Below, piece after piece: positions 5,892 through 25,030 of a DNA stretch of 64,000 nt. The position numbers were made by a program, and so were the translations under genes. The stretch is taken from the NCBI RefSeq assembly GCF_029094505.1, contig NZ_CP119108.1, forward strand, positions 372,001 through 436,000, in the 5' to 3' direction. Position 1 is the stretch's first letter. Every line of letters begins with the position of its first letter. This DNA comes from Microbacterium horticulturae. Its GTDB lineage: Bacteria; Actinomycetota; Actinomycetes; Actinomycetales; Microbacteriaceae. The notes beneath the pieces are model-generated. The model did not search any database. It was not told the origin of the DNA and worked only from the letters and a program-made list of their open reading frames with translations.

Positions 5892-5897
5892 CGACGC

Positions 5898-6545: not shown

Positions 6546-6560
6546 CCCGCCCGCGCCCTT

Positions 6561-6640: not shown

Positions 6641-6682
6641 CGGGATGCCGCGGCGCACCGGCCCGCGGCATCCCGCCCCCCA

Positions 6683-9009
<2,327 letters not shown>

Positions 9010-9015
9010 CGGACG

Positions 9016-9045
9016 ATTGTCACGCCGCTGCGGCTCGGTGCACAA
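9016..9045 (-). promoter_or_regulatory. Candidate promoter of the TetR-MFS pair
   Basis: On the minus strand TTGTGC (9045-9040) and GACAAT (9021-9016) are separated by 18 bases, and GTG 9009 follows the -10 by six bases. The -35 element lies inside the operator palindrome, which is how a TetR repressor normally blocks its own promoter. Confidence 0.45.
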
Positions 9046-9066
9046 ATGCAAGATTGCATTCATGCA
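9039..9066. promoter_or_regulatory. Palindromic TetR operator
   Basis: A 28-bp near-palindrome centred at 9052/9053. The core AATGCAA-GA-TTGCATT is a perfect inverted repeat with a two-base centre, and TGCA blocks sit symmetrically at both outer ends (9039-9042 and 9063-9066). It lies just upstream of the TetR gene and about 120 bases before the divergent alarmone synthetase gene, so it may affect both. Confidence 0.7.
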
Positions 9067-9182
9067 CGATTCTCAGGTTGTGCGTCGGCATCATGGTGCT
9101 GGGGGCGGCTGGAGCCCGCGCTAGGGCGCCGGCGCGCGGCATCCCCTCATCCGATGCTGACCTGACTGTCAGACGTCCGCCG

Positions 9183-9188
9183 TACGGT
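9183..9188 (+). promoter_or_regulatory. Candidate -10 box, leaderless alarmone synthetase mRNA
   Basis: TACGGT followed by seven bases and ATG 9196. There is no Shine-Dalgarno sequence. CTGAC-type motifs lie 15-20 bases upstream, but neither is a convincing -35. Confidence 0.4.
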
Positions 9189-9195
9189 GAGTGCT

Positions 9196-9903
9196 ATGCA
9201 GACCCCGTCTGATCTCGATGAGCCCGTGGAAGTCTCACCTTCGCAATTGCGGTCGGTGCGCGATGAACTGCAGAGGTTCTTGCTGCCGTACCGGTTCGGA
9301 CTGCAGGAGGTCTCGACGAAGATCGACATCCTGCGCGACGAGTTCCAGTACATGCACGATTACAACCCGATCGAGCACGTGTCGAGCCGTGTGAAAACGC
9401 CCGACAGCCTCGTCGAGAAGGTCAGCCGTAAGGGCATCGAGCCCGACTTCGAGAGCATCCGGTCGCGCATCACCGACATCGCCGGCATCCGCATCACGAC
9501 GAGTTTCACCGCCGACGCGTACCGGCTCTTCGACCTGCTGACCGCGCAGGCCGACATCTCGGTGCGGCGGGTCAAGGACTACATCGCGCACCCGAAGCCC
9601 AATGGGTACAAGAGCCTGCACGCGATCCTCGAGGTGCCGGTGTTCCTGTCCACCGGAACGCTGAGCGTGCCGGTCGAGGTGCAGTTCCGCACGATAGCGA
9701 TGGATTTCTGGGCCAGTCTCGAGCACAAGATCTACTACAAGTACGACTGCCAGGTGCCCTCCGAGCTGACCGATGAGCTCAAGGACGCCGCCGAGTCCGC
9801 GGCGCTGCTCGACGCGCGCATGGAGCGTCTGCACCAGGAGCTGCACGGCGGTCAGAAGCAGCTCGAGGCTCCGCGCGGCGACGGGCGGGTCATCACGGTC
9901 TGA
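9196..9903 (+). CDS. Small alarmone synthetase (RelA/SpoT-type GTP pyrophosphokinase)
   Basis: Single-domain (p)ppGpp synthetase of 235 residues that should transfer pyrophosphate from ATP to GTP or GDP. The RelA/SpoT synthetase core is complete: SRVKTPDSLVEKVSRKG (ATP-binding loop), ITDIAGIRITTSF with the catalytic Asp, VKDYIAHPKPNGYKSLHAIL (G-loop), and VEVQFRTIAMDFWASLEHKIYYK. No hydrolase HD domain, TGS or ACT domain is present, so it is a small synthetase of the RelP/RelQ/YjbM kind. The start is ATG 9196 with TACGGT seven bases upstream; GTG 9187 would overlap that box. Small synthetases are usually controlled transcriptionally or by tetramer allostery; here it stands alone. Confidence 0.92.
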   Translation: MQTPSDLDEPVEVSPSQLRSVRDELQRFLLPYRFGLQEVSTKIDILRDEFQYMHDYNPIEHVSSRVKTPDSLVEKVSRKGIEPDFESIRSRITDIAGIRITTSFTADAYRLFDLLTAQADISVRRVKDYIAHPKPNGYKSLHAILEVPVFLSTGTLSVPVEVQFRTIAMDFWASLEHKIYYKYDCQVPSELTDELKDAAESAALLDARMERLHQELHGGQKQLEAPRGDGRVITV

Positions 9904-10072
9904 GGGGGGGTGCCGGCCCGCGCGGGTTGTTCGTGCGCGGCTGCGCGTGGCTCTGCGCGCCGCGCCCGTGCTGCTCAGAACTCAGCCGATCTGTGCCGTG
10001 GGCGGCCCCGGCGACGGCTTTCGCCGCCGCAAGGCGGTGGATCGACGGGGTTCTGAACATCCTGCCCGCCGA

Positions 10073-10078
10073 TACCCT
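10073..10078 (+). promoter_or_regulatory. Candidate -10 box for a leaderless hypothetical gene
   Basis: TACCCT, six bases, then ATG 10085. Same spacing as in the other leaderless candidates; no ribosome site. Confidence 0.4.
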
Positions 10079-10084
10079 GGCCTG

Positions 10085-10573
10085 ATGGAGCTCGCCGCGA
10101 TCCTGGATGCCGCGCGCCAGCGCCTCGCCGGGATGCGGCAGGAGCGGCTCGGCGAGCTCGTGCAGCCACGCCGGCTGCTCGGGATCGCGCGGGCGCCGCG
10201 CATCGTGCCGCGACTGGCAGCCTGGCACCTGGGCGTGCTGCTGCTGGGCGATGACGCGCTGTACGCAACGGGCGAGATCGTGCGGGCGCGCGAAGAAGTG
10301 CGGCGTGGCTTCACCGCGGAGTCGCAGCGCGAGCGCGACGCGCTGGCGGGAGCCGCTTTCCGCGGCGGATTCGCCGAGGGTGAGGTCGTGCACATCGGCT
10401 GGACGCCCATCGACTTCGACGTGCTCGCGCAGGGCGAGGCATCGGGACCGGTGCGGGTCGTCGAGGGGATGCCGCGGGTCCGGTGGAGTCGCGCCGGCGG
10501 CGAGAGCGACCTGGCCGCCTATCTCGACGAGCGGGTCGAGCTGCTGCGGCATCCCGCTCCCGGCGCCACCTGA
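10085..10573 (+). CDS. Conserved-looking protein of unknown function
   Basis: A 162-residue soluble protein with actinobacterial codon use throughout. It is helix-rich in the first half (ELAAILDAARQRLAGMRQERLGELV), then has RIVPRLAAWHLGVLLLGDDALYATGEIVRAREEVRRGF, and ends in beta-like segments (EGEVVHIGWTPIDFDVLAQGE, VRVVEGMPRVRW) before an acidic helix. No signal peptide, membrane segment or catalytic motif that I recognise. Start ATG 10085 is preceded by TACCCT at leaderless spacing. It stands alone between the alarmone synthetase and the glycogen gene. I cannot assign a function. Confidence 0.75.
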   Translation: MELAAILDAARQRLAGMRQERLGELVQPRRLLGIARAPRIVPRLAAWHLGVLLLGDDALYATGEIVRAREEVRRGFTAESQRERDALAGAAFRGGFAEGEVVHIGWTPIDFDVLAQGEASGPVRVVEGMPRVRWSRAGGESDLAAYLDERVELLRHPAPGAT

Positions 10574-10640
10574 CGCGCGCCCCCGTCGCCGCCCTCTCTC
10601 CCGCCCGCTCCTTCTCCTGCCCGCGCTTCCTTCTCGGCGG

Positions 10641-10712
10641 ATTCATATGAATTTGTCCCACGCACACCAAACCGGCGACAGTTTGATGTGCACGAGACAG
10701 TTCCATATGAAT
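10641..10712. repeat. 72-bp imperfect inverted repeat
   Basis: Two 32-base arms (10641-10672 and 10681-10712) match in about 25 of 32 positions around an 8-base loop. Both outer ends carry CATATGAAT. It is AT-richer than everything around it. It lies between two co-directional genes and may terminate the first transcript, though no T-run follows. Confidence 0.8.
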
Positions 10713-10715
10713 TTG

Positions 10716-10774
10716 CTGCTCGCGCGCTGGCGCTGCTCGCGCGCTGGCGCTGCTCGCACGCTGGCGCTGCTCGC
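10716..10774. repeat. 17-bp tandem repeat, about 3.5 copies
   Basis: The unit CTGCTCGCGCGCTGGCG occurs at 10716-10732 and 10733-10749. A third copy with one change is at 10750-10766, and a half copy follows. It directly follows the 72-bp inverted repeat and ends about 90 bases before the glgX start. No open frame of convincing codon use runs through it. Confidence 0.85.
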
Positions 10775-10865
10775 GTAGGGTCTCTGGCCGGGCGGTGCGA
10801 CCTCGCACGTAGCGAGGGGCGGGGCGCCGCCGGGGTAACGTTGACCGGGTCAGGAAGGGGAACCC

Positions 10866-13030
<2,165 letters not shown>

Positions 13031-13040
<10 letters not shown>

Positions 13041-13061
13041 GCGAGCGCAGCGAGTCGAAAC
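13031..13061. repeat. Hairpin plus GAGCGAGCGCAGCGAG dispersed repeat at the glgX stop
   Basis: CGCTCG (13031-13036) and CGAGCG (13042-13047) form a 6-bp stem around TTGAG spanning the glgX stop codon. The longer GAGCGAGCGCAGCGAGTCGA block is a familiar dispersed intergenic sequence in Microbacteriaceae (general knowledge, not checked here). A degenerate relative occurs on the minus strand near 43568-43585. It probably terminates glgX transcription. Confidence 0.5.
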
Positions 13062-13203
13062 GGGCCAGATCGCGGCGTACCGCGGCGTGCACACCGGAGG
13101 GGATTCTGGCCGACACGCCGGCCCGCGGCATCCTGCACCCGGTCGAAAAATCTCGTGTCGTCATGTATCAGCGGCCCGACTTCCCTCCTCTCGCAGATGT
13201 GGA

Positions 13204-13213
13204 GACAATTGTC
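13204..13213 (+). promoter_or_regulatory. GACAAT -10-like box inside a GACAATTGTC palindrome
   Basis: GACAAT (13204-13209) sits seven bases before GTG 13217, so the sigma-factor mRNA may be leaderless. The box is half of the perfect 10-bp palindrome GACAATTGTC, which could be a repressor site or an autoregulatory sigma target. Confidence 0.4.
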
Positions 13214-13216
13214 ACT

Positions 13217-13837
13217 GTGACATCCCTTGACGAACCGCCGACCGGCGAAGAGCCGGCCGACGGCGAGCCGACGCGCTGGGAGCGCGCCGGCACCTTGTTC
13301 GCGCAGTGGCGTGAGGGTGACACCCGCGCGATGGACGAGCTCGTCCGCCTGATGACGCCGACGCTCTGGCACGTCGTGCGAGCGTACGGGGTGGATGCCG
13401 CGCTCGCCGAAGACGTCGTGCAGACGACGTGGCTGACGCTCGTGCGCAGGCACGAGACGATCGCCGACCCGCGCGCGGTGTCGGGGTGGCTCACGACCTG
13501 CGCGCGCCGCGAGGCGTGGCGCGCCGGCAAGGCGCAGCGACGCGCCGACGTCACCGACACCGAAGAGCTCGAGCCGCAGCTGCCGGCGGCGGAGTCGGCG
13601 GAGACGTCCGCGTCGCGCAGTGACGAGGCGCAGCGACTGTGGGCGGCTGTTGCGCAGCTGGCCGAACGGTGCCGGCGCCTGCTGCGGGTCATAGCGTTCG
13701 ACGACCGCCCCGACTACGCGCGCATCGCGAAGGACATGGCGATGCCCATCGGCTCGATCGGGCCGACGCGGCAGCGCTGCCTGAGCAAGCTGCGTGCGCT
13801 GCTCGGCGATGAGGGGGTGGCGGCATATGGAGACTGA
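13217..13837 (+). CDS. ECF-like sigma-70 family RNA polymerase sigma factor
   Basis: About 206 residues. Region 2 is recognisable: LFAQWREGDTRAMDELVRLM, then VVRAYGVDAALAEDVVQTTW and RAVSGWLTTCARREAWRAGK. After an acidic linker comes a region-4-like HTH (LAERCRRLLRVIAFDDRPDYARIAKDMAMPIGSIGPTRQRCLSKLRALL). The fold matches extracytoplasmic-function sigma factors. GTG 13217 is preferred (leaderless -10 at 13204); ATG 13163 would add 18 residues. Its 3' end overlaps the next gene by 11 bases. It heads a cluster with a TPR-CHAT protease and a subtilase, so it may drive that cluster's promoters and could itself be released by proteolysis (inference). Confidence 0.85.
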   Translation: MTSLDEPPTGEEPADGEPTRWERAGTLFAQWREGDTRAMDELVRLMTPTLWHVVRAYGVDAALAEDVVQTTWLTLVRRHETIADPRAVSGWLTTCARREAWRAGKAQRRADVTDTEELEPQLPAAESAETSASRSDEAQRLWAAVAQLAERCRRLLRVIAFDDRPDYARIAKDMAMPIGSIGPTRQRCLSKLRALLGDEGVAAYGD

Positions 13838-14291
13838 CGACTTCTCCGTCGACGCGGCGCTGTTCGCGCGGCTGCGCTCCGCGTGGGAGGAACGCGACCC
13901 GGTGCCGGCCGGACTCATCGACCGCATGGTCGCCGCTGTCGCCGTCGAAGACCTCAGCCGCGAGTACGCGCTGCTCACCCTCGTCGAGGGCGAATACGCC
14001 GAGGTGCGCGGCGAGACCGACACGTCGACGCTGCAGTTCAGCGACGGCAAGACGAGCGTGCTGCTGCACGTGACCGCGACAGAGGCCGGCGATCATCGCG
14101 TCGACGGATGGGTGGATGCCGCAGCCCGCGAGGTGCGCCTGGTCCAGGGTGACCGTGAGCAGAAGAGCCAGGTCGGCGAACACGGTCGGTTCGCGTTCGA
14201 CGGGGTGCGCGCCGGGCTCACCCGCGTACGGCTCGCGATCACGCGCGAGGGCGAGGCGAGCTGGTTCCAGACCCCGCAGTTCGAGATCTGA
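13827..14291 (+). CDS. Small protein coupled to the sigma factor; possible anti-sigma or adaptor
   Basis: A 154-residue soluble protein starting at ATG 13827 behind GAGGGGGTGG, inside the end of the sigma gene (11-base overlap), so translation is coupled. The N-terminal half is helical (SVDAALFARLRSAWEERDPVPAGLIDRMVAAVAVEDL). The C-terminal half (about 80-154) has the alternating pattern of a carboxypeptidase-regulatory or transthyretin-like beta-sandwich: VDGWVDAAAREVRLVQGD, then HGRFAFDGVRAGLTRVRLAI. No membrane segment and no zinc-binding HxxxCxxC. Overlap with a sigma gene is typical of anti-sigma factors, but the fold differs from known ones. Role unproven. Confidence 0.75.
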   Translation: METDDFSVDAALFARLRSAWEERDPVPAGLIDRMVAAVAVEDLSREYALLTLVEGEYAEVRGETDTSTLQFSDGKTSVLLHVTATEAGDHRVDGWVDAAAREVRLVQGDREQKSQVGEHGRFAFDGVRAGLTRVRLAITREGEASWFQTPQFEI

Positions 14292-14315
14292 TTCTCCTAT
14301 GACCGGCGGCTGCGC

Positions 14316-14321
14316 CAAGAT
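14316..14321 (+). promoter_or_regulatory. Weak candidate -10 box ahead of the CHAT gene
   Basis: CAAGAT six bases before GTG 14328 keeps only A2 and T6 of TANNNT. GGGAG directly abuts the start codon, too close for a normal ribosome site, so a leaderless start is the better reading. Confidence 0.25.
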
Positions 14322-14327
14322 GGGAGC

Positions 14328-16799
14328 GTGACCCCGACCGCAGTCGAGCTGCATCGTCGCGCTGTGGAGCAGTGCAACGACGGTCGTTTCGCGCTCGCCG
14401 GCCGCACGCTGCAGCGCGCGGCCGAGCGCACGGACGATCCCGACCTGCAAGCGCGGATCAAGGGCACACAGGCCGTGGTACTCCAGCGCACAGGGCACCC
14501 GGCCGAAGCCGAAGCGTTGTGCCGGGCGGCTCTGGCCGGCGACAGCATCCGCGAGTCGACACGTGCGGTGGTGCTCGGACAGCTGGGACTTCTGGCGCTC
14601 GGCGCCGGACGTCTGCATGACGCGGAGCGCGATCTGTCGGCGGCCATCGCCCGGCTGACGGACGATCCGGTGGCCGAGGCGCGAGCACGGATGAACCGCA
14701 GCGTCACCCGTCTGCAGCGACGAGACGCCTCCGGTGCCGCGGACGATCTGGAGCGCGCCGCCGAGATCTTCGCCGACGCGGGACTCACCGTCGATGAAGG
14801 ACAGGCGCAGCATAACCGCGCGTACGTCGCGCTGCTTCAGGGCGATCTCGTGGCGGCCCTGCGCGGAATGCAGGAGGCCCGTCCGCGAGCCGCGACGTCG
14901 GCGGTCGCCGGCGCCGTGTGCGACATGGACGAGGCGGAGGTTCTGCGCGACGCAGGCCTGACGCGGGATGCGGAACGCGCGCTGGTGGCCGCCGCGGCGG
15001 TCTTCGGAGCCCAGCGGATGCCGCAATCGCGGGGCGAGGCGGAGTTCCAGCTCGCCTCGTCGCAGCTTCTGCACGATCCCCGAGGGGCCGCGCGCACGGC
15101 CACGGCGGCCGAGCGCCGCTTCATCGCCCTCGGCAATACGACCTGGGCGGCGCGGGCGGCCGCGATGCGAATGCGCGCCGGACTCAGCGGAGGCAGCGTG
15201 CAGCGTGGCGGTGGACGGCTCTCGGATCCGCGACGCGTGCCCTCGGCCGAAGACGTCGAGGCGACGGCAGCCCTCCTCGATCGGGTCGCCTTCCCGGCTG
15301 AGGCGGCGGCGCTACGACTCACGCTGGCCGTCTGGCGGGCACGCCACGGCCGAGCCGACGGCATCGGGGTGATCCGCGTGCCACGGGGCGCGCCCATCCG
15401 TGTGCAGCTGCTGGCGTACGAGGCGCGCGCGGCTCGCGCCGCTGCACGTCGTCGATACGCCGACGTCCGCCGCGCCGCTGCCGAAGGGCTCGACGTGTTG
15501 ACCGGGTGGCGCCGCTCGTTCGGCAGCCTCGACCTGCAGACTTCGATCGCCATGCACGGGAACGACCTGGTGTTCGCGGGTCTCGGCAGCGCTGTTCACA
15601 CCCGACGCCCCGACATCATCTTCGAGTGGTCGGAGCGCGCCCGTCAGCTCAGCCAGCAAGTCGTCCCGCTGCGTCCGCCTCATGATCCGGAGCTGGCGGC
15701 GGATCTCGCCGAACTCCGGATGCTGCGCACCGACGATCCGGACGGCGTCGACACCGCACGGATTCTGCGGCTGCGCGAACGGACGCGCTCGCGTCAGTGG
15801 ACGCAGACAGCCGCCGGCGCCGCCTGGGAGCGTCAGAGCCTGGAAGGGTTCGTTCCCTCACTCGGCCGCGATACAGCGCTGGTCAGTTACGTATACACGG
15901 GCGACGCGCTCACGGCCCTCGTGGTGACGGACCAGGAGCAGCGGGTCATTCCGCTTCCCGGGGCGGCCGCGGCGCGGGCCCAGCTCCCGGGTCTGCGCGC
16001 AGACCTCGACATGGTCGCCACGGTGCGCACGGGTCCGCTCGCAGAGGTCGTCCGACGTTCGCTCGACGCAAGGCTCGCAACGCTCTCGGATGTTCTGCTG
16101 GATCCTCTGTTGCGCGTGGTCGGCGACCGACGCATGGTCGTCACCGCCCCCGGCATCCTGGCGGGGATCCCCTGGGCGATGCTCCCCGGCGCGAGGGAAC
16201 GGGCGTTCACCCTGGCGCGGTCGGCGGCGCAATGGGCCGAGAGGCACGGCGCACCCTTTTCGATGCACGCGGCGGGCTTCAGCGTCGGCCCGCGCGTCGC
16301 CCGCGGTGGTGAAGAGGTACGCGCAGCGGCAGACGCGTGGGCGTCGCCGACGGTGCTGGAGGGGAAAGCCGCGTCCGTCGACGCGGTCGCCGCGCTGGCG
16401 GAGCGCGTCGATGTGCTGCATGTCGCGGCACACGGTCGGCACGCCGTCGACAACGCGCTGTTCTCGGGCCTCGAGCTGGCCGACGGCACACTTTTCGGGT
16501 ACGACATCGACCGCGTCGGCCACGTCCCTGACGTCGTCGTGCTGTCGGCCTGCGAAGGCGGACGGTCATCGGTGCGTTGGGGTGAAGAGGCCGTGGGCAT
16601 GGCACGCATCTGGCTGGCGGCGGGTGCCCGTTGCGTGATAGCGGCGCCGGTCGTCGTCGCGGACGATGACGCCTGTGAGCTGCTCGGCGCGCTGCACGCC
16701 GAACTCGCGGCGGGAGCAGTGCCGGCAGACGCCCTGGCCGCGGCATCCATCCGAACCGGTCTCGTCACGCCCTTCCAAACGCACGGCACCGGTTTCTGA
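14328..16799 (+). CDS. TPR-CHAT caspase-like protease
   Basis: An 823-residue soluble protein. Residues 1-400 are helical-hairpin repeats of TPR type (LHRRAVEQCNDGRFALAGRTL, ARMNRSVTRLQRRDASGAADDLERAAEIFADAG). A linker rich in Arg/Thr follows, and the C-terminal third is a CHAT cysteine-protease domain. The catalytic dyad is visible: His in LHVAAHGRH (about H702) and Cys in VVLSACEGG (about C742), followed by the RWGEEAVGMARIWLAAGARCVIAAPV strand that closes the fold. No signal peptide. CHAT-TPR proteins serve as regulated proteases in bacterial defence and cell-death systems. Between a sigma factor and a subtilase, it probably senses a partner through the TPRs and cleaves one of its neighbours (inference). 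Confidence 0.9.
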   Translation: MTPTAVELHRRAVEQCNDGRFALAGRTLQRAAERTDDPDLQARIKGTQAVVLQRTGHPAEAEALCRAALAGDSIRESTRAVVLGQLGLLALGAGRLHDAERDLSAAIARLTDDPVAEARARMNRSVTRLQRRDASGAADDLERAAEIFADAGLTVDEGQAQHNRAYVALLQGDLVAALRGMQEARPRAATSAVAGAVCDMDEAEVLRDAGLTRDAERALVAAAAVFGAQRMPQSRGEAEFQLASSQLLHDPRGAARTATAAERRFIALGNTTWAARAAAMRMRAGLSGGSVQRGGGRLSDPRRVPSAEDVEATAALLDRVAFPAEAAALRLTLAVWRARHGRADGIGVIRVPRGAPIRVQLLAYEARAARAAARRRYADVRRAAAEGLDVLTGWRRSFGSLDLQTSIAMHGNDLVFAGLGSAVHTRRPDIIFEWSERARQLSQQVVPLRPPHDPELAADLAELRMLRTDDPDGVDTARILRLRERTRSRQWTQTAAGAAWERQSLEGFVPSLGRDTALVSYVYTGDALTALVVTDQEQRVIPLPGAAAARAQLPGLRADLDMVATVRTGPLAEVVRRSLDARLATLSDVLLDPLLRVVGDRRMVVTAPGILAGIPWAMLPGARERAFTLARSAAQWAERHGAPFSMHAAGFSVGPRVARGGEEVRAAADAWASPTVLEGKAASVDAVAALAERVDVLHVAAHGRHAVDNALFSGLELADGTLFGYDIDRVGHVPDVVVLSACEGGRSSVRWGEEAVGMARIWLAAGARCVIAAPVVVADDDACELLGALHAELAAGAVPADALAAASIRTGLVTPFQTHGTGF

Positions 16800-17041
16800 A
16801 CTCGACGTATCAGGGCCAGATGAGGGGGCTCTAACACTGTGGGACGTTCGCAGCGCCGGGGGTCATCAGACTGGGGAGTCGACCTCGACGGCGGTGCGCT
16901 GCGGCGGAGATGGGCGGACTGGGGACGCCATCGCCGAGCCCAGCGGGAAGGGCGTCGGGGGAGCCGACGTCCTTCCCGTGTGCTCGGCGAAGGATAAAGT
17001 TCGAGATCACAGCGCAGAAGCGCACGGGCGAGGAGGTCACC
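16800..17041. other. Intergenic region between CHAT and subtilase genes
   Basis: 242 bases with no credible gene. A ribosome site GAGGAGG lies at 17030-17036. TAAAGT at 16995-17000 is a possible -10, without a good -35. The base composition is looser than in the flanking genes, so an independent promoter for the subtilase is plausible. Confidence 0.5.
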
Positions 17042-18613
17042 ATGGCGGTGCAGGACGGCAGTGACGGCAAGATCGAGCGCACGCCGCGCGGCGCGAGCTG
17101 GCAGCAGCGCGAGAACAACATCCGGCCGCTCGGCGCGGTGCTGCAACCTCCGGCGGGTCAGGGAGACGACACGTTCTTTCCGACCGTCTACATTCCGGAT
17201 CGGCTTCTCGTCGATGCGGGGCGCGACGCCGGCGAGGTCGCCGCGTCGCTGAACCAGGTCTTCGCGCGCGCCGGCTGGCGTTTCGCGCCGGTGCCCGTTG
17301 TGCGAATCGACCGCCGCGCTTCGCACAGCGATGCGGACCTCGCGTCAGCCACCCGCCTGCAGATCGTCGGCGAAGAAGCCGCTGCCGGATCGATGCCGGA
17401 CGCGTGGGCGCTGCTGACGGCCGCGCGACGCGAGAACGTCGACCTGACGGGAGTGGGGCTCGACCATCTTCTGACGGTGGCACCCGTCGGCATGAATCCC
17501 TTCACCTCGACGAACCCGTTCACCTCGACGAACCCGTTCACGTCGACGAACCCGTTCACGTCGACGAACCCGTTCACCTCGACCAATCCCTTCACCTCGA
17601 CGAACCCCGCCTCAGCGGGTCTGGGAGCGTACGCGCTCCCCGGATTCGGCGGGCGACAGGTGATCTCGTGGATCGGAGCGGCACCGGCGCGCGACCGGCG
17701 CCGGAAGAAGCGCCGCCCCGTGGTGATGATCGTGGACACCGGGTGCGCCCCCCATCCGTGGTTCGGCGGGGGCGTTGTGGACTCCCATGTGACGCTGGAC
17801 GGTGACCCGATCGGCATCAGCGACCCGAGCTCGACCCCCGACCTTCATCCCGACCTGGTCGGGCCGCTGGACGGAGAGATCGATCCCGTGTCAGGGCACG
17901 GCACCTTCCTCGCTGGCATCGTGCATCAGGTGTGCCCGGATGCCGACATCCTCTCCGTGCGCATCGCGGACAGCCTCGGGCGGGTCATCGAGTCCGACCT
18001 CATGAAGGCCATGGAGCAGGTCGCCGAACTCGTGCGCCGCCAGGCGAACGGCGAGGACGGCGGGCGCCGGATCGACGTTCTGAACCTTTCGCTCGGCTAC
18101 TACCACGAGAACCCCGACGACGTGCTGTACAGTGACGGCCTTCGCGCCGTGCTCATGAAGATCGCCATGCACGGCACGACGATCGTCTGCAGCGCCGGCA
18201 ATGACGCGACCGACCGTCCGATGTTCCCGGCGGCGTTCCCCAGTGACGACGGCGCGGCGCCGTTGCTCGCGGTCGGTGCGAAGAATCCGAACGGCAACAG
18301 CGTGGCGCTGTTCAGCAACACGGCGCCCTGGGTCGACATGTACGCGTGCGGGGTGTCGGTGCTCTCGACGTTCCCGAGCTTCGACGGGGGAGCGCAGGCG
18401 GTCACACGCCGCGATGCGCATGGTCAGCGGCGGGAATCCCTCGACCCCGACGACTTCACCGGCGGCTTCGCCGTCTGGAGCGGCACGTCATTCGCGGCCC
18501 CGTACATCTCGGGCCGTCTCGCCGCTCTGCTCGACGAGTGGGACGACGACGTGGATGCCGCGACGCGCGCCTCTCGTGCGGCCGAGGCCGTGGCGAAGCT
18601 GCAGAAGGAGTAA
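17042..18613 (+). CDS. S8 family (subtilisin-like) serine protease with NPFTST repeats
   Basis: A 523-residue protein without signal peptide or membrane segment, so probably cytoplasmic, unusual for subtilases. Residues 1-150 form an uncharacterised N-terminal domain. Residues 152-187 are six exact NPFTST repeats. A basic RDRRRKKRR patch (about 217-225) precedes the catalytic domain. The triad is complete: Asp in MIVDTG (about D232), His in SGHGTF (about H286), Ser in GTSFAAP (about S483). The oxyanion region CSAGNDA is present. Start ATG 17042 has GAGGAGG six bases upstream. The domain order suggests a pro-region and repeat hinge that could be cut to activate it, possibly by the CHAT protease encoded upstream (inference). 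Confidence 0.92.
   Translation: MAVQDGSDGKIERTPRGASWQQRENNIRPLGAVLQPPAGQGDDTFFPTVYIPDRLLVDAGRDAGEVAASLNQVFARAGWRFAPVPVVRIDRRASHSDADLASATRLQIVGEEAAAGSMPDAWALLTAARRENVDLTGVGLDHLLTVAPVGMNPFTSTNPFTSTNPFTSTNPFTSTNPFTSTNPFTSTNPASAGLGAYALPGFGGRQVISWIGAAPARDRRRKKRRPVVMIVDTGCAPHPWFGGGVVDSHVTLDGDPIGISDPSSTPDLHPDLVGPLDGEIDPVSGHGTFLAGIVHQVCPDADILSVRIADSLGRVIESDLMKAMEQVAELVRRQANGEDGGRRIDVLNLSLGYYHENPDDVLYSDGLRAVLMKIAMHGTTIVCSAGNDATDRPMFPAAFPSDDGAAPLLAVGAKNPNGNSVALFSNTAPWVDMYACGVSVLSTFPSFDGGAQAVTRRDAHGQRRESLDPDDFTGGFAVWSGTSFAAPYISGRLAALLDEWDDDVDAATRASRAAEAVAKLQKE
17495..17602 (+). repeat. 18-bp coding minisatellite (six NPFTST codon units)
   Basis: Six in-frame 18-base units, differing only at synonymous third bases (AAT/AAC, CCC/CCG, ACC/ACG), encode six identical NPFTST hexapeptides. 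A seventh degenerate unit starts NP. Protein-level identity with DNA-level variation points to selection on the peptide rather than a very recent duplication. Confidence 0.95.
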
Positions 18614-18628
18614 GGGGAGCGGTGGCCC

Positions 18629-19354
18629 TCACCGCGACGAGTTCGCGGTGCGGCCGCGCACGATGCCCACGAACGCGTCGACGAGCTCGGTGGTGCGGTC
18701 CGCGTCCCACGCCAGAGCGACCGTCGAGACGGGGCCGCCGCGCAGCGGGCGGTAGGTGACGTCCTTGCGGTGGTGCAGCCGCGCCAGCGACATCGGCACG
18801 ACGAGCACCCCGACGCCCGCGGCGACGGTGGCCACGGCATCCTCTGTCGTCTCGGGCGCGTCGAAGACGGGCGCTGTCGTGCCGGGAGACGCGAAGCGCA
18901 GCACGTCGTCGGCCGGAGTGATGAGCACCTCGCCGTCGAGGTCCGAGACCTCGAGCTCGTCGGCCGCCGTCAGCTCGGAGTCGACGGAGACGACCACGAC
19001 GGGCACCTCGTCGTACAGCGCGATCACGTGCAGCCCGTCGCTGTCGATCGGCAGCCGCACGAGCGCAGCGTCGGCGCCGGCCAGGGCCTCACGCTGATCC
19101 GTGAACGGCACCGGAACGAGTTCGAGCGGGTAGCGCGGCATCCGCTCTTCCCAGATGCGGATCCACTTGCCGGGGGTCGCGCCCTCGACGGCGGCCAGGC
19201 GGAAGGGGCCTGCGGGTGGCGGTGCCGGTGAGGGGGAAGGTGCGGGCTTCTTCTTGGGTGCGGGCTTGGGCGCGGCCTTGCCCCCGGGCTTCTGCCCCGC
19301 CGGCCGCGGCGCTCGCCGCGGCGCGCGCCCGCTGCCTGATCGCCCTCTCGCCAT
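18629..19354 (-). CDS. LysR-type substrate-binding domain protein lacking a DNA-binding domain
   Basis: About 241 residues. The first 60 are Arg/Ala/Pro/Lys-rich and probably disordered (PRPAGQKPGGKAAPKPAPKK). The rest is the periplasmic-binding-like effector domain of LysR regulators: FRLAAVEGATPGKW, YPLELVPVPFTDQREALAGADAALVRLPI, VALYDEVPVVVVS-like core, VATVAAGVGVLVVPMSLARL, YRPLRGGPVSTVALAW. No winged helix is present, so it cannot bind DNA in the LysR way. The basic tail might bind nucleic acid instead. ATG 19354 has TAGGTT seven bases upstream (leaderless). Similar HTH-less proteins occur in Microbacteriaceae; the role is unknown. Confidence 0.82.
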   Translation of the reverse strand: MARGRSGSGRAPRRAPRPAGQKPGGKAAPKPAPKKKPAPSPSPAPPPAGPFRLAAVEGATPGKWIRIWEERMPRYPLELVPVPFTDQREALAGADAALVRLPIDSDGLHVIALYDEVPVVVVSVDSELTAADELEVSDLDGEVLITPADDVLRFASPGTTAPVFDAPETTEDAVATVAAGVGVLVVPMSLARLHHRKDVTYRPLRGGPVSTVALAWDADRTTELVDAFVGIVRGRTANSSR

Positions 19355-19361
19355 ACCGTTC

Positions 19362-19367
19362 AACCTA
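19362..19367 (-). promoter_or_regulatory. Candidate -10 box for a leaderless LysR-like gene
   Basis: On the minus strand TAGGTT is followed by seven bases and ATG 19354. No ribosome site is present. Confidence 0.4.
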
Positions 19368-19458
19368 GCGCGCCGCGGGGCGCACATCATCCTGCCGGAC
19401 GACCCGGATACACCCGCGGACGGACGACACCGCGCGATCCGGGGATGAGGCTGGAAGC

Positions 19459-20244
19459 ATGACTCCCGTCCTCACTGCCACCCGTCTCACCCAGCGTTAC
19501 GGCGACCTCATAGCGCTCGACGGCGTCTCGGTCACGATCGGCCGGGGCGAGTCCGTCGCCATCATGGGGGCCTCCGGCTCCGGCAAGACCACGCTGCTGC
19601 ACGCGCTCGCGGCCGTGTCGGCGGTGGATGCCGGATCCATCAGCCTCTTCGTCGACCCGACCGGCCCGCCGCTCGAACTGGTCGGCATGACCGAGTCGCA
19701 GCGGTCGGCCGTGCGCCGCGAGCATGTCGGCTTCGTGTTCCAGGAGCATCTGCTGCTGCCCGAGCTGACCGCCCTCGAGAACGCCGCGCTGCCGCTGCTC
19801 GTGCTCGGAATGCCGCGCCGCGACGCCGATCAGCGCGCCGCCGCGTGGCTGGCAGCTCTCGGTCTTGCCGGCATGGAAGACCGCCGCATCGGCCAGCTCT
19901 CCGGCGGGCAGGCGCAGCGCGTCGCCATCGCCCGCGCCCAGGTCGCCGGCGCCCCCGTGGTGTTCGCCGATGAGCCGACCGGCGCCCTCGACTCGCACAC
20001 GTCCGACGAGGTCATGACCGCGTTGCTACACGCCACGACCGGGCAGGGCCGCAGTCTCGTCGTCGTCACCCACGATGCCGGGGTCGCCGCCCGCTGCGAC
20101 CGCGCGCTGCGCATGCGTGACGGACATCTGACGGAAGAGGGGGTGGATGCCGCGACCGCCGCGCCGGCACCGGTTGCGGCGGCGGTGCCCGCGGCATCCA
20201 CCCCCGCCTTCGTCGCGCCGCAGAACAGTGAGGCGTCGCGATGA
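19459..20244 (+). CDS. ABC exporter ATPase, LolD/MacB type
   Basis: A 261-residue ATPase of the FtsE/LolD/MacB/SalX group. Walker A GASGSGKTTLLHALAAV, Q-loop VGFVFQEHLLLPELTALENAALPLL (characteristic of this subfamily), signature QLSGGQAQRVAIARA, Walker B VFADEPTGALDS, and H-loop VVVTHDAGVAARC are complete. The C-terminal 35 residues are Ala/Pro-rich. Its stop overlaps the permease start (ATGA), defining a two-gene exporter. Such pairs act in cell-envelope stress, antimicrobial peptide export or lipoprotein handling; the substrate cannot be read here. Confidence 0.9.
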   Translation: MTPVLTATRLTQRYGDLIALDGVSVTIGRGESVAIMGASGSGKTTLLHALAAVSAVDAGSISLFVDPTGPPLELVGMTESQRSAVRREHVGFVFQEHLLLPELTALENAALPLLVLGMPRRDADQRAAAWLAALGLAGMEDRRIGQLSGGQAQRVAIARAQVAGAPVVFADEPTGALDSHTSDEVMTALLHATTGQGRSLVVVTHDAGVAARCDRALRMRDGHLTEEGVDAATAAPAPVAAAVPAASTPAFVAPQNSEASR

Positions 20245-21623
20245 GCGCCGTGGCCGCGGCATCCACGTCCCGCCGGAACGGGCCGGTGCGACGTGTGCTC
20301 ACGCTGACGGCGCTGCTCGCGCGCCCCACGCGGCAGGGACGCGCGGCGCTCGTGCTGCCGGTCGTGGCGTTCGCGGTCACGACCGCGTTGCTGCTGGCGG
20401 TGGTGGGCGGCACGAAGATGTTCCTGACCGATCCGCGTGTGACGAGTGACTCGGAGTTCGGCTTTCTCTACGGGCAGCTGAGCCTGCTCGCGCTGATCCT
20501 CCTGGCGGTGCCGGTTGCGACCCTCGGTGCCGCGGCCGCGCGACTGTCGAGCAGGCGCCGCAACGACCGGCTCGCGACGCTGCGGCTGCTGGGTGCCTCG
20601 AGTGCCGAGGTGTCGGCGACGACGGTGCTCGAGGCCGCCGCGACCGCGCTGGCGGGTGCGGTCATCGGCGTCGGACTGTACGGTGCGGTGCTTCCGTTGG
20701 TGGGTCTGCTGCCGTTCTTCGGCGGACCGATTGGCGCCGGCGCGGTGTGGACCGGTTGGGGCATCGTCGTGCTCGTCGTCGCCGCGCTCACGCTGCTGGC
20801 GACGGTGAGCGCCGCGGTTGGTCTGCGCAAAGTGCGGCTGACACCCCTCGGCGTGCGGCAGCGCACCGACGCGGCACCTCGGCGCACCGCGCTCATCGTG
20901 ATCGGGATCGTCGCCGTGGCGCTCATGGTGCTGGTCGTCGCGAACGTCAACGCGCTCGGGCAGCTGCTTGGCCCGGTCGCCGCGATCGGCGTGCTGCTGG
21001 CGCTGTTCGGCGGGGCGATGCTCGTCATCAACCTGATCGGCGCGCCGCTGGTGGCAGCGCGCGGGCGGGCGATGGCGAAGAAGTCGAAGACGGCCGCGCA
21101 TCTGATCGCCGGGCGCGAGCTGGCTGCGCACGCCGCGACCGCCTGGCGGCGTGTCTCGGCGATCGCGATGATCTCGTTCATCGCCGTTGTCGGCGGGGCG
21201 GGCGTGTCGATCGCCGATCTGGCCGGCGATCAGGCGGGGCCGATGTTCGCCGATATCCGCACGGGGGTCATGGTGACGCTGGTGGCGGGATTCCTGTTGC
21301 TGGCGTGCTCGGTCGGTGTCACCCAGGCCGCGTCGGTGCTCGAAGACCGCGAGCTCATCGTCGGGCTCGACCGGCTCGGCATGCCCGAGGTGCAGCTGCG
21401 CCGCGCGCGCCGGATGACGGTGCTCGTGCCGCTGCGCTGGGCAGCGCTGGGCGGCGTCGCGGTCGGGTTCGTGCTGAGCCTGCCGCTGGTGGGGATCGCG
21501 CTGTTCGTCGCCCCGATCTCGCTGGTGATCGTGGCCGGGGCGTTCGCGCTCGGCTTCGCGCTCGTGCTGGTTGCGCTGGCGGCGGTGCGTCCGTTGTTGA
21601 CCGCGGTGCGCCGCGGGGCGTAG
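20241..21623 (+). CDS. FtsX-like ABC permease
   Basis: A 460-residue membrane protein with about ten hydrophobic segments. It has an FtsX-like core (LRLLGASSAEVSATTVLEAAATALAGAVIGVGLY near residue 110) and a second, weaker copy near the C-terminus (LIVGLDRLGMPEVQLRRARRMTVLVPLRW). This matches the actinobacterial MacB/SalY-like permeases that pair with LolD-type ATPases. It starts within the ATPase stop codon. No large extracytoplasmic MacB domain is seen, so it is of the compact type. Convergent with the hexapeptide-repeat gene across a repeat-rich gap. Confidence 0.88.
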   Translation: MSAVAAASTSRRNGPVRRVLTLTALLARPTRQGRAALVLPVVAFAVTTALLLAVVGGTKMFLTDPRVTSDSEFGFLYGQLSLLALILLAVPVATLGAAAARLSSRRRNDRLATLRLLGASSAEVSATTVLEAAATALAGAVIGVGLYGAVLPLVGLLPFFGGPIGAGAVWTGWGIVVLVVAALTLLATVSAAVGLRKVRLTPLGVRQRTDAAPRRTALIVIGIVAVALMVLVVANVNALGQLLGPVAAIGVLLALFGGAMLVINLIGAPLVAARGRAMAKKSKTAAHLIAGRELAAHAATAWRRVSAIAMISFIAVVGGAGVSIADLAGDQAGPMFADIRTGVMVTLVAGFLLLACSVGVTQAASVLEDRELIVGLDRLGMPEVQLRRARRMTVLVPLRWAALGGVAVGFVLSLPLVGIALFVAPISLVIVAGAFALGFALVLVALAAVRPLLTAVRRGA

Positions 21624-22207
21624 GGGCTCGCCGTGCCGGCGCGCGGGGACTCATGCTGTGGCGCCGGGCTCGCCGCGCCGCGCGGTGTAGGGGGCTCGCC
21701 ATGCCGGCGCGCGCCGGGATTCCTTCCGTGGCGCCGGGCTCGCCGCGCCCAGGAGCGAGCCATCCTCCAGACGTATTGAACTTCCGGCTCACACAGCTCG
21801 TGGGGTCTGTGTGAACCGGAAGTTCACTGCGGTTTTGAGAGGGTGTGGTGCGCGACCCCGCCGCCGTGCGAGACCCAGCCGCAGTGCGCGACCCAGCAGC
21901 CGTGCGCGTGCGAGACCCGCCCCCGTGCGGGCTCGCGGGCCGCGGTGTGGGGTCGCGGGGCGCGGCATCCGAGCCTCCTCGCCTCGGGCGAGGGGAATGG
22001 ACGAGGCGAGGGTCGAATCGCGCGAAAAGGCCCTCGCTTCGGCAGATCTCCTCGCCTCGGGCGAGGGCGGGCGTGTGGGGTGGCGGCCCCGGCTCAATGA
22101 ACGGCACTCGGCTCGCTCGGCGCCCGGGTGGCACTCGGCTCGCTCAGCGCGCGGATGCACTCGGCTCGCTCGGCATCCGGCCGCGCCGGCGCGAGCCGCC
22201 GCGGGCC
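21624..22207. repeat. 584-bp repeat mosaic without genes
   Basis: Gap between convergent genes, packed with short repeats. A direct repeat of about 60 bases (21623-21679 and 21690-21749) shares GGCGCCGGGCTCGCCGCGCC. Next is the long inverted repeat at 21775-21826, then a degenerate tandem of GTGCGAGACCC (about 21848-21931). Two identical hairpins CCTCGCC-TCG-GGCGAGG lie at 21977-21993 and 22050-22066. Three copies of GCACTCGGCTCGCTC start at 22104, 22131 and 22157. No frame with host-like codon use runs through it. Confidence 0.8.
21775..21826. repeat. Long inverted repeat, copy 1 (TGAACTTCC..TCACACAG family)
   Basis: Arms 21777-21796 and 21807-21826 are 20 bases each with one mismatch, around a 10-base loop. 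The arm reads TGAACTTCCGGCTCACACAG. A second element with nearly the same arms but a different 20-base loop lies at 42020-42081. Both are between convergent genes, so a bidirectional terminator is the simplest reading. Confidence 0.9.
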
Positions 22208-22615
22208 CTACGCGGCTAGGTGAAAGCCGCGCCGGTCGGTGGCGATGTGCGCGCCGTCGTCGATGACCTCGTCATCGCCGATCAGCGATCCGGTCGCGAC
22301 GGCGGCGTGGTCACCGATGTGCGTGCGCACACCGATCTTGGCCTTGGCGCCGACCGAGGCGTGCGGGCCGATGTGTGCGTGCGGGGCGATGAAGACGTCG
22401 GGGCCGATGACCGCGTCCTCTTCGATCCAGGCGCCGCGACCGATGTGGGCACCGGCCGCGATGTGCGCCCTGGGTTCGACATACGCCCCCGCTTCGACGA
22501 CGGCGCTGGGGTGTACCTTCGCGCCGTGCGCGATCAGGCCACGGCCGTTGGCGTGCTTGCGGTAGCGCAGCGTCTCGCCCTGGTCGTTCTCGATGTCGAC
22601 GTAGTTCTTACCCAC
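22208..22615 (-). CDS. Hexapeptide-repeat (left-handed beta-helix) protein
   Basis: A 135-residue protein made mostly of [LIV]-G-x4 hexapeptide turns (VHPSAVVEAGAYVEPRAHIA, then AHIGRGAWIEEDAVIGPDVFI and IGVRTHIGDHAAVATGSLIG). This is the fold of LpxA/DapH-type acyltransferases and gamma-carbonic anhydrases. I see no acceptor-binding domain, no obvious catalytic His triad and no CoA-site extension, so activity is uncertain. The N-terminus (VDIENDQGETLRYRKHANGRG) is a short beta strand pair. GTG 22615 is chosen as start because AGGAGG lies six bases upstream; ATG 22633 is too far from it. It stands alone. Confidence 0.82.
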   Translation of the reverse strand: MGKNYVDIENDQGETLRYRKHANGRGLIAHGAKVHPSAVVEAGAYVEPRAHIAAGAHIGRGAWIEEDAVIGPDVFIAPHAHIGPHASVGAKAKIGVRTHIGDHAAVATGSLIGDDEVIDDGAHIATDRRGFHLAA

Positions 22616-22670
22616 GGTGTCCTCCTGCGGCATCCATGATGCCACTTTCTTGGAATAACCCTGTAACAAA

Positions 22671-24449
22671 TCATTCCATTCCCGGCGCAGAAGACGAAAT
22701 CGGCTCGGAGTATGCGTACTTTCCGCCACGCAGGGCCGACGCGACGGCCGCCACCAGGCACGCGACGATGGCGAACGCGAACGCGACGGTGAGCCCGTCG
22801 GCAAACGGCCCCGAGATCAACGAGGGAAAGAAGCCGCGCCCGGTCAGATACGCGGCGCTGGATGCCGGCAGCTGCGAGATCACGGCGGGCCCGAGCAGCG
22901 TCTGCACGGGGTTGTAGCCCAGCAGCGAGGCGAACAGCACGCTCACCGGCGGCAGTGCGGCGACCTTCGCGGCGGCCGCGGCGGGCACCCCGTGCGCGAC
23001 GAGTCCCGATTGCAGCGCCCCGGGCAGCGAGTGGGCGAGCCCGGTGATCATGAGCGAGAAGAAGATGCCGATCGACAGCACCATCGCCGCGTTCTGGAAC
23101 ACCGTGCTCATGCCCGCGCCCACGCCGCGCTCGCCGGGCGGCAGGCTGTTCATGATTCCGGCGCGGTTGGGCGAGGCGAACACGCCCATGCCGATGCCGT
23201 TGAGCAGCAGCGCCGACGCGAACGGAAGGTAGGTGAAATCCACGGGCAGCAGAAGGAGCCAGACGAAGGATGCCGCGGCCACCAGCATCCCGCCCGTCGC
23301 GAACGCCCGCGCGCCGAAGCGGTCTGACAGCCAGCCCGAGACCGGGCCCGCGATGAGGAATCCGACCGTGAGCGGCAGCATGTAGATGCCCGCCCACAGC
23401 GGCGTGGACGCGAAATCGTAGCCGTGCTGCGGCAGCCAGATGCCCTGCAGCCAGATGATGAGCACGAACATGAGTCCGCCGCGGCCGAGCGAGCTCAGCA
23501 GCGACGCGAGGTTGCCGGCCGTGAACGCGCGGATGCGGAACAGCGCGAGGTGGAACATCGGCTCTGCCACGCGGGTCTCGATGACGCAGAAGATGAGGAG
23601 GACAAGGATGCCGCCGCCCATCGCCGCGAGTACTGAGGGGTTCTCCCACCCCATCGTGTGCGTGCCGTAGGGCTGGATGCCGTAGGTGATGCCGACCAGG
23701 AGGGCGACGAGTCCGACCGCGAACGTGATGTTGCCCCACCAGTCCATGCGGGCGCGACGGCGCACGCCGGTGTCATGCAGGCTGACGTACGCCCAGACCG
23801 TGCCGATGAGGCCGACGGGCACCGAGACGAGGAACACGAGCCGCCAGTCGATCGGCCCGAGGATGCCGCCGATGATGAGGCCGATGAACGAGCCGGCGAT
23901 ACCGGCCACCTGGTTGAGGCCCAGCGCGAGGCCGCGCTGGTGCACGGGGAACGCGTCAGTGATGATGGCGTTCGAGTTCGCGAACAGCATCGCGCCCCCC
24001 ACGCCCTGCAGGATGCGCATGACGATCATCCAGAGCGCGCCCGCGGTGCCGTGCATCCAGGTCACCGCCAGCAGGATCGAGAAGATGGTGAAGATCGCGA
24101 ACCCGGCGTTGTACATGCGCACGCGGCCGTACATGTCGCCGAGCCGGCCGAAGCTGACCACGAGCACGGCCGTGACGACCATGTAGCCCATGATCAGCCA
24201 GAGCATGAGACTCGTGTTGCCGGGCTCGAGCGGGTTCACGCCGATGCCGCGGAAGATGTCGGGCAGGGCGATCAGCAGAATGGATGCGTTGATCGATGCC
24301 ATCAGCACGCCCAGCGTCGTGTTCGACAGGGCGATCCAGCGGTAGTGCGGGCTCGCCGTGCGCACGGCGGCGCGTCGGGCGCGGGCGGCCGCGCGCGTGC
24401 TGAGCGTCGCACGGCGGGGGAGCGTCGGGCGGGTGTCACGCACGCTCAT
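22671..24449 (-). CDS. MFS drug efflux transporter, DHA2 family
   Basis: A 592-residue antiporter-type transporter. About 40 basic N-terminal residues precede helix 1 (NTTLGVLMASINASILLIALPDIFRG). Motif A-like SFGRLGDMYGRVRMYN and the RILQGVGGAMLFANSNAI motif are DHA2 signatures, and the 14-helix pattern continues to the C-terminus. Start ATG 24449 overlaps the stop of the TetR gene. It is the second TetR-MFS pair in the window built in the same way, but the protein differs from the 6683-8308 one. A SPW-repeat membrane protein is encoded upstream in the same direction. Confidence 0.92.
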   Translation of the reverse strand: MSVRDTRPTLPRRATLSTRAAARARRAAVRTASPHYRWIALSNTTLGVLMASINASILLIALPDIFRGIGVNPLEPGNTSLMLWLIMGYMVVTAVLVVSFGRLGDMYGRVRMYNAGFAIFTIFSILLAVTWMHGTAGALWMIVMRILQGVGGAMLFANSNAIITDAFPVHQRGLALGLNQVAGIAGSFIGLIIGGILGPIDWRLVFLVSVPVGLIGTVWAYVSLHDTGVRRRARMDWWGNITFAVGLVALLVGITYGIQPYGTHTMGWENPSVLAAMGGGILVLLIFCVIETRVAEPMFHLALFRIRAFTAGNLASLLSSLGRGGLMFVLIIWLQGIWLPQHGYDFASTPLWAGIYMLPLTVGFLIAGPVSGWLSDRFGARAFATGGMLVAAASFVWLLLLPVDFTYLPFASALLLNGIGMGVFASPNRAGIMNSLPPGERGVGAGMSTVFQNAAMVLSIGIFFSLMITGLAHSLPGALQSGLVAHGVPAAAAAKVAALPPVSVLFASLLGYNPVQTLLGPAVISQLPASSAAYLTGRGFFPSLISGPFADGLTVAFAFAIVACLVAAVASALRGGKYAYSEPISSSAPGME

Positions 24450-25030
24450 GCGCGCACCGGCGCCTGGATGCCCGCCACGAGCAGCCGCGCTATGGCGCGC
24501 AGGGTGTCGGATGCATGCAGTCGCGCGATCGTGTCGGACGCCTCGAGCGGACGGGCCGTGATGGTCGCGGCCCACGCGAACGCGGCCGCCCGCACCGCGT
24601 CATCGTTGACGGGTGCAGGCAGGCTCGCGGTCAGTGCCCGCGCGATCGTGTCGTGCAGCGCATGCCGATAGCGGGTCAGCGCGCCGAGCACCTCGGGTCG
24701 GGTGTGGCTTTCGTGCCAGATGATCTCGCGCAGCACGTGGGACCCTTCGCGGTCGCGGCGCACGCCGTCGGCGACGTTGACGAGCGTCTGCAACGGGTCG
24801 CCGGCGACCGTCAGCGGCGCGGGGTCGAGCGTGTGCGCGCCGAGGCGCTCGTCGATGAGGGCCGTGAGGATCTCGGGCTTGGTGGCGAAGTAGTAGAACA
24901 GCAGACCCTTGGGCACCTCCGCCGCGCGCGCGATGCGCGCGGTGGACGTGCCGTCGAAACCGTGCTCGGCGAACAGGGTTGCCGCGGCATTCAGAATCCT
25001 CGTCCTGGCCGGGTCTGCCGTCTCTTGCAT
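24446..25030 (-). CDS. TetR/AcrR family transcriptional regulator
   Basis: A 194-residue repressor with N-terminal HTH (RTRILNAAATLFAEHGFDGTSTARIARAAEVPKGLLFYYFATKPEIL) and a helical effector domain. Start ATG 25030 is preceded by AAGGAGTCC on the minus strand. The stop overlaps the start of the MFS pump. A TetR-type palindrome (25524-25537) lies upstream of the SPW gene, so this protein probably controls the SPW-TetR-MFS group. Confidence 0.9.
   Translation of the reverse strand: MQETADPARTRILNAAATLFAEHGFDGTSTARIARAAEVPKGLLFYYFATKPEILTALIDERLGAHTLDPAPLTVAGDPLQTLVNVADGVRRDREGSHVLREIIWHESHTRPEVLGALTRYRHALHDTIARALTASLPAPVNDDAVRAAAFAWAATITARPLEASDTIARLHASDTLRAIARLLVAGIQAPVRA

Follow-up and report, generated by a model that had tools for sequence, protein, structure and literature searches.

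Four consecutive genes of Microbacterium horticulturae, read in a single direction at positions 13217-18613 of a 64,000-nucleotide stretch (the window; C1:372001-436000 of a 3.65 Mb genome contained in one contig), encode an extracytoplasmic function (ECF)-type sigma factor (SIG), a small partner protein (SML), a TPR-CHAT caspase-like protease and an S8 protease. The four genes are confirmed as a conserved unit across Actinomycetota, where the unit occurs in several classes. The module resembles an internal alarm circuit of a kind not yet described, and the chances are about even that it is a cytoplasmic two-protease switch feeding the ECF sigma factor. At the sequence level the case is built on the conservation of the unit, its catalytic residues, the pattern of a repeat in the S8 protease, the co-variation of that repeat with the TPR part of the CHAT protein, a pair of promoter-like motifs and covariation within a candidate RNA.

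In the proposed resting state, the N-terminal prodomain would cap the S8 protease as a zymogen, and SML would hold the sigma factor and probably also contact the protease pair. In the TPR-CHAT protein, the TPR part would recognise, and dock on, the tandem peptide in the S8 hinge by a lock-and-key fit private to each lineage, with both partners changing together. When the sensor is triggered, cleavage would run from CHAT to S8, in or near the repeats, and so free S8; S8, CHAT or both would then remove SML and release the sigma factor. The latter would transcribe its own operon, a positive feedback, together with one output unit beside it: in Microbacterium this would be a structured RNA, and some relatives would have another protease or enzymes of the lanthionine type in its place. 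More tentatively, the two proteases may form a self-recognising pair that uses a private, rapidly rewritten peptide word, with the TPR/repeat fit keeping paralogous circuits, or neighbouring ones, apart and the freed sigma factor driving a structured RNA or an executioner enzyme. An earlier note on this DNA had read the genes as a proteolytic cascade that frees the sigma factor. That interpretation is partly supported: the single conserved unit, the intact catalytic residues, the S8 hinge as a likely contact point and the conserved promoter motif of the module speak for it, and its cleavage steps stay conditional. It had not covered the pair of promoters, the RNA as an output, the atypical gene order of the window or the fact that the repeat is hypervariable.

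The account of the window given in that note holds in its main features: open reading frames (ORFs) and profile matches recover all four genes, the overlap of the first two, the His/Cys dyad and the Asp/His/Ser triad. The sigma factor (13217..13837, forward strand, as are all four genes; 206 aa) matches Sigma70_r2 in Pfam (7.5e-10) and sigma70-ECF in NCBIfam (2.5e-18), and its closest solved relative is M. tuberculosis SigL (9e-4). SML (13827..14291; 154 aa) starts 11 bp inside the sigma gene. It comprises a conserved N-terminal segment (DP.P..L), in which DP.P is invariant in the alignment, and a C-terminal part resembling CarboxypepD_reg. SML itself has no convincing family match in Pfam, NCBIfam and PADLOC searches, and 14 of the 25 members of its family match CarboxypepD_reg (PF13620) at E<=1, the best at 1.7e-5. 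Its position and its overlap with the sigma gene suggest a putative anti-sigma factor. The TPR-CHAT protein (14328..16799; 823 aa) matches PF12770 at residues 582-809 (1.2e-22), carries H702 and C742, and is the sole CHAT match of the genome, with no second one at E<=1e-3. Its N-terminal part matches TPR_16 at 0.011, under the cut-off, so the TPR label is weakly backed by sequence. The S8 protease (17042..18613; 523 aa; PF00082, 8e-20; D232/H286/S483) appears by eye to lack a signal peptide and is accordingly taken as cytoplasmic. Its frame is open already from 16910, and the ATG at 17042 is the better start because AGGAGG lies just upstream.

The neighbourhood survey covered 67 annotated loci (designated by L numbers), two from the genome of the window and 65 others, some of which are one genome reached via two collections (at least L025/L040 and L014/L041). 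The homologues of the four genes adjoin in relatives and are not scattered, which settles a check that the earlier note had proposed. The usual order is sigma-SML-S8-CHAT, found on one strand in 54 of the 65 other loci (51 plain, three with S8 or CHAT doubled); six loci have S8 first, with CHAT also present in wider stretches, one is split into two divergent pairs, and four are cut by the end of the locus or contig. The order of the window, with CHAT before S8, is rare and recurs only in L023, a cut contig. SML matches at E<=1e-3 occur in 41 of 396 genomes of the phylum and, within the genus, in 30 of 59, one of these at 6.5e-4. S8 matches occur in 72 of the 297 genomes of the order, many of them to the S8 domain alone, and 36 CHAT relatives were found in named genomes, mostly Microbacterium. 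Annotation at the phylum level took in loci from 29 of the 41 SML genomes, eight weak ones and four from the order being left out; S8 and CHAT both lie within ~8 kb in 16 of them and CHAT only in two. This scattered presence over phylum, order and genus indicates that the unit is old and patchy.

The active sites, whose loss in most homologues had been named as a sign against the module, are retained in nearly all homologue rows. The CHAT alignment has 102 rows, duplicate genomes included, with 32 gapped at the dyad sites; H702 is kept in 69 of the 70 rows with a residue at the site, the exception being L022, a metagenome-assembled genome with CHAT in two pieces, and C742 in all 70. In the 99 rows of the S8 alignment, D232 (87/87), H286 (94/94), N387 (94/94) and S483 (94/94) are all conserved. 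Locus L119 contains two SML, two S8 and two CHAT genes with one sigma gene, and L120 three SML, two S8 and two CHAT genes, again with one sigma gene. Thus SML also travels with the protease pair and is more than an appendage of the sigma factor.

An AlphaFold2 model of the S8 protease (23 sequences; mean predicted local distance difference test (pLDDT) score 71, predicted template modelling score 0.81) contains strands at residues 49-57, 79-84, 104-110 and 138-145 and helices at 63-74 and 121-130. The resulting order over residues 49-145, beta-alpha-beta-beta-alpha-beta, fits a subtilase-type prodomain. Residues 148-211, which contain the repeats, have pLDDT values <50 and are followed by the catalytic domain. 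Subtilases with inhibitory prodomains are known, and the order of elements predicted ahead of the S8 domain would suit a prodomain of this kind. The protein differs from them in having no Inhibitor_I9 signature (PF00082 is its sole Pfam match up to E 1), no export signal as judged by eye, and a tandem repeat that separates the prodomain from the catalytic domain.

This hinge carries six NPFTST copies with 18-nucleotide (nt) spacing (17495..17602, forward strand), and all six matches of a degenerate form of the unit in the genome fall there and nowhere else. In relatives the hinge usually holds 3-9 copies of one 5-8-residue unit that is uniform per gene; at least three copies are present in 65 of 87 S8 rows, and among the 22 rows without them five are duplicate entries of genes. 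Between adjacent copies there are 517 synonymous vs 139 other base changes, where 24% synonymous would be expected without constraint; the comparison tolerates one mismatch, and many of the 139 changes look like units read across the edge of the array. Between genes, 37 different units were counted across 52 S8 genes, and the same unit is shared in six of 15 gene pairs whose catalytic domains are at least 80% identical. The unit is therefore uniform within a gene despite synonymous drift and hypervariable between genes. L186 and L187 illustrate this: with sigma factors 100%, SML 98% and S8 95% identical, one has PFIATN in all five copies and the other PLIETN in all five, so that every unit differs at the same two residues, and synonymous codons differ among the copies. 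Units also differ between the two S8-CHAT pairs within L119 and within L120, which would fit a unit that keeps parallel circuits apart.

The TPR half of the CHAT protein probably reads this repeat. Between the CHAT proteins of L186 and L187, 69 of 80 differences fall in alignment columns 78-376, and identity is 79% over residues 1-330, 99% over 331-560 and 96% over 561-823. A co-variation test used 185 pairs from 64 complete loci with S8 catalytic identities of 0.6-0.995 and exact repeats on both sides. Unit similarity followed the residual TPR identity, after removal of the identities of the other regions, with r 0.34 (0/2000 label permutations as high). The control regions gave -0.08 (middle), -0.13 (CHAT domain), -0.02 (S8 prodomain) and -0.08 (SIG), and SML gave 0.13 (269/2000). 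The TPR correlation peaks at residues 141-250 (1/500), and it persists at r 0.29 when L186-189 are removed (7/1000) and when further near-duplicates are removed (13/1000). Because the permutations ignore the tree, these figures are optimistic; more weight falls on the controls, which stay flat when permuted in the same way. Since unit similarity tracks the TPR half and not the catalytic half, the sigma factor or the S8 prodomain, the data support the S8 hinge as the likely contact between both proteases, as had been supposed.

Comparison of the upstream regions points to GTATCA-N~16-CTC as a conserved promoter-like motif before the operon and before a second output beside it. Motif 1 (TGTATCA-N16-CCTC, 13164..13190, forward strand) lies 53 bp upstream of the sigma start. 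Motif 2 (CGTATCA-N15-GCTC, 16806..16831, forward strand) lies 6 bp after the CHAT stop, in the position of the second motif of most Microbacterium relatives, and is one base off TGTATCA. TGTATCA was found in 33 of 38 sigma upstream regions, mostly 52-54 bp from the start, and the motif has 62 matches in 680 kb (37 sources) vs ~10 expected from composition. Among the 28 second TGTATCA sites in relatives, 26 lie 10-77 bp 3' of the CHAT stop, one lies after S8 (L023) and one ~0.4 kb after a second, partial CHAT (L029); L008, L013, L017 and L020 have GGTATCA at this site. No second motif was seen directly after CHAT in L027, L032 and L033, and L021 is uncertain. A wider form of the motif gave 120 matches vs six for the reversed pattern, in 76 loci. 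These include members of other families and classes, in which the second site and the operon are often divergently oriented.

Across the complete sequences of the 59 genomes of the genus there are 70 matches to the strict motif: 37 at most 13 kb from SML, 17 at other places in the 29 genomes with the module and 16 in the remaining 30. Within the module genomes, 37 of 54 matches thus lie within 13 kb of SML, where ~0.4 would be expected. The 33 matches away from the module are taken as background, since the reversed control gives 40 over the 59 genomes (sum over columns). This clustering near SML suggests that the conserved regulon consists of the operon and its neighbour. A search for a regulon in the genome of the window with TGTATCA-N13-17-GCTC was uninformative alone (five matches vs six for the reversed control); one of the five is the L144 site described below. 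The sigma factor would recognise the GTATCA motif, which precedes its own operon as in autoregulated ECF sigma factors.

In Microbacterium the second output is a structured RNA with G-rich loops, to which the Rfam searches assigned no family (none in window 12500-19000 at E<=1, and none at gathering level in seven loci). The candidate in the window (16838..16979, forward strand, its start placed from the motif) has G-rich loops and a 16-bp terminal hairpin at 16943-16979, and its region folds with a z of -4.9 vs shuffles. Each of 29 collected regions, the window included, contains a hairpin of at least 10 bp, by a scan that had no shuffled control, misplaced the hairpin in L007 and picked a later one in L011. 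When its partner strand is swapped, the closing helix never pairs as well as with its own (0/10,000 permutations as good). In an alignment of 15 sequences, from which the structure was also read off, 90.4% of cells pair vs 41-53% in slid controls, and 10 pairs change on both sides vs a shuffled mean of 3.8 (0/500). UGGGG occurs 45 times vs 14.7 in shuffles. An RNA model, R1, found 18 places at E<1e-6 in 66 sources, 15 of them its own seeds. It scored the RNA of the window at 21 bits (E 1.5), had no significant match in that genome, and also missed a second Microbacterium group and other genera, so that a single alignable family is not claimed; the kinship of the window RNA thus rests on motif, position and shape. 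Fold energy was discarded as a strand indicator (mean z -2.5 forward vs -2.7 reverse), and RNAalifold on all 29 regions returned the terminal hairpin only.

Among 11 loci with gene calls, the next gene after the second site is on the other strand in L002, L003, L009 and L025. For L013, L026, L029 and L036 a crude gene caller predicts long forward frames at this place that are probably antisense, and in the window the S8 gene lies downstream of the RNA. At L144 (genome of the window, C1:698415, minus strand) CUGGGG-type hairpins come after the motif, with an ORF behind them, and the stretch looks like a second RNA copy; at L175 (G693) the motif is followed by GGGG hairpins; further copies in trans may therefore exist. 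By eye, GGGG-loop RNA-like stretches also lie 3' of the second sites in L107, L112, L126, L133 and L137.

Other relatives have protein-coding genes in the output slot: a papain-family protease (8e-38) after the CHAT gene in Segeticoccus (L037:1756-2871), an S8 protease gene after the second site in L116, and in L118 a trypsin-like protein just under the family cut-off. A HopA1-family protein followed by a LanC-like protein occurs after the second site at L108:10303-12440, LanC-like proteins lie behind or near it at L111:5764-7122 and L118:14519-15871, and an APH-like kinase follows it at L121:24-848. Together, the HopA1-family, LanC-like and APH-like proteins resemble a lanthionine-forming enzyme set. 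The genes after the second site in L131 and L021 have no convincing Pfam match. At L021:4334-5277 the promoter-like motif stands before each of two proteins, one bearing an ALNPQPLPP motif and the other a divergent one of 94 aa, and the frame after the second site of L114 (5857, minus strand), whose start is similar to the S8 output of L116, looks interrupted. Exchangeable outputs on one module are the pattern of a signalling unit and not of a metabolic operon.

Several observations weigh against the two-protease switch. Anti-sigma families gave no match to SML besides one CnrY at 0.044. In the phylum set, eight of the 29 loci have sigma and SML only and three have SML alone, with no S8 or CHAT found, several of them near contig ends; sigma control may thus not always need local proteases. 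The repeat is absent from six loci of one large-genome genus and from L127, L130 and L135, so the module can do without it. The correlations are of modest size, and label permutation does not respect phylogeny; in a stricter set of 88 pairs SML reached 28/2000, and the co-variation may stem from a shared antagonist instead of contact. As for the RNA, one of five pair measures, further pair types, gave 20 vs 20.1 in shuffles (335/500), the closing helix P1 pairs in 75.8% of cells vs 99.5% for the terminal hairpin, and the RNAs of L004, L016, L024 and L026 fold no better than shuffles.

A shared antagonist is the core of one alternative, which we consider unlikely: the hinge would be bait for foreign proteases of a phage or competitor, any cut would free S8, and hinge and TPR part would both change fast without binding each other. 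Such a tripwire would account for the strong change of the unit between species with uniform copies, for L186/L187, where the TPR part has changed and the rest hardly, and for the patchy presence (SML in 30/59 genus genomes). However, it is unit similarity, and not merely rate of change, that follows TPR similarity, a pattern that is no direct consequence of a shared opponent, and the plasmid (CHAT) and phage (S8) searches gave no link to mobile elements. The units might also be released by S8 processing as short peptides, a lineage's own word, and be sensed by the TPR part. RRNPP regulators sense peptides of similar length, and units of 5-8 residues in 3-9 copies, private to a lineage and co-varying with the TPR part, would suit such a signal; yet the repeats lie inside a protein that by eye lacks an export signal, and no free peptide is known, which makes this the least probable explanation considered.

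The same co-variation speaks against an ordinary stress operon, in which the sigma factor and SML would regulate a proteolysis operon without any cascade, the repeats serving as flexible linker and the RNA as leader or terminator. Sigma-SML pairs do occur without nearby proteases, S8 in the window and an ORF in L144 lie downstream of the RNA as they would for a leader, and autoregulated ECF factors are common (PMC10028731). Against this, the copies keep their residues through synonymous change, which a passive linker would not need, and the closing helix co-varies separately from the terminal hairpin. We regard the stress operon, like the bait, as improbable, and the two-protease switch remains the preferred reading.

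The module would be a new form of protease-to-sigma signalling. Its ECF sigma factor is encoded together with a protease, as in protease-controlled sigma/anti-sigma systems, and by analogy the closest known logic is that of Craspase, of CalpL/SAVED-CHAT and of caspase/EACC2 systems with ECF sigma factors. In Craspase, CHAT cuts Csx30, an inhibitor of the sigma factor, for which sites are predicted in its own locus (PMC10028731). Type III-E Craspase/CASP (Cas7-11, Csx29, Csx30, CASP-sigma) likewise places a TPR-CHAT protease next to a small protein and an ECF-like sigma factor. The module shares the TPR-CHAT protein with its His/Cys dyad, the TPR being weakly matched; what it adds is the S8 protease with its repeat-bearing hinge, and the candidate RNA as output. 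No sequence match links its CHAT protein to solved Csx29 (phmmer, PDB chains, E<=1; only Cas11a at 0.4). Among the type III effectors described in PMC11229360, the protease CalpL of CalpL-CalpT-CalpS sets a sigma factor free of its inhibitor, and the CHAT protease of SAVED-CHAT starts a proteolytic cascade. By comparison with that description, the four proteins have no SAVED or Lon domain among their Pfam matches, and the module has TPR in place of the nucleotide sensor and S8 as second protease. Both of these systems are CRISPR effectors, whereas the module shows no CRISPR sign: window 5000-25000 has no CRISPR-like array and the genome no Cas1 match, Cas7-11 itself not having been searched. 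Caspase/EACC2 conflict systems couple ECF sigma and TPR genes (PMC8195603). The Pfam matches of the module include neither EACC2 nor TRADD-N nor DUF1822, Pfam coverage of the first two being unchecked, and the S8 protease with repeats, SML and the RNA are absent from the part of that description available. Literature titles and abstract openings show no such module, and an ECF group that already has a name may share this context.

With regard to a possible role in defence, PADLOC models matched at the domain level only, CHAT to BovA (5.6e-4) and S8 to 'subtilase' (7.4e-10) and IetS (5.9e-4); none matched the sigma factor or SML. Mobile origin finds no support in the plasmid search with CHAT (two records, partial matches at 46% and 22% of the query; phages not searched) or in the phage search with S8 (17 records, none covering 80%; plasmids and viral contigs not searched). 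MT838002.1, a short unannotated 'Bacteriophage sp.' record, encodes an S8 catalytic domain 39% identical. The window gene at 18629-19390 (minus strand) has a counterpart 3' of the module in L002, L003, L009 and L029, and other loci differ. At L123:8008-10491, 3' of SML, lies an acyl-CoA-ligase-like protein (by eye) that starts with GHGLYPA repeats. Outside the module, three tandem copies with 20-nt spacing occur at window 6561-6634.

If the two-protease reading is true, a CHAT-to-sigma proteolytic circuit would exist outside CRISPR in several actinobacterial classes, and an unclassified structured RNA would be added. The circuit would have a built-in, naturally varied specificity code, TPR vs repeat, that is testable by unit swaps, and a ready-made transcriptional read-out in its two promoters and one RNA. 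The target choice of bacterial caspase-like proteases would thereby become directly testable.

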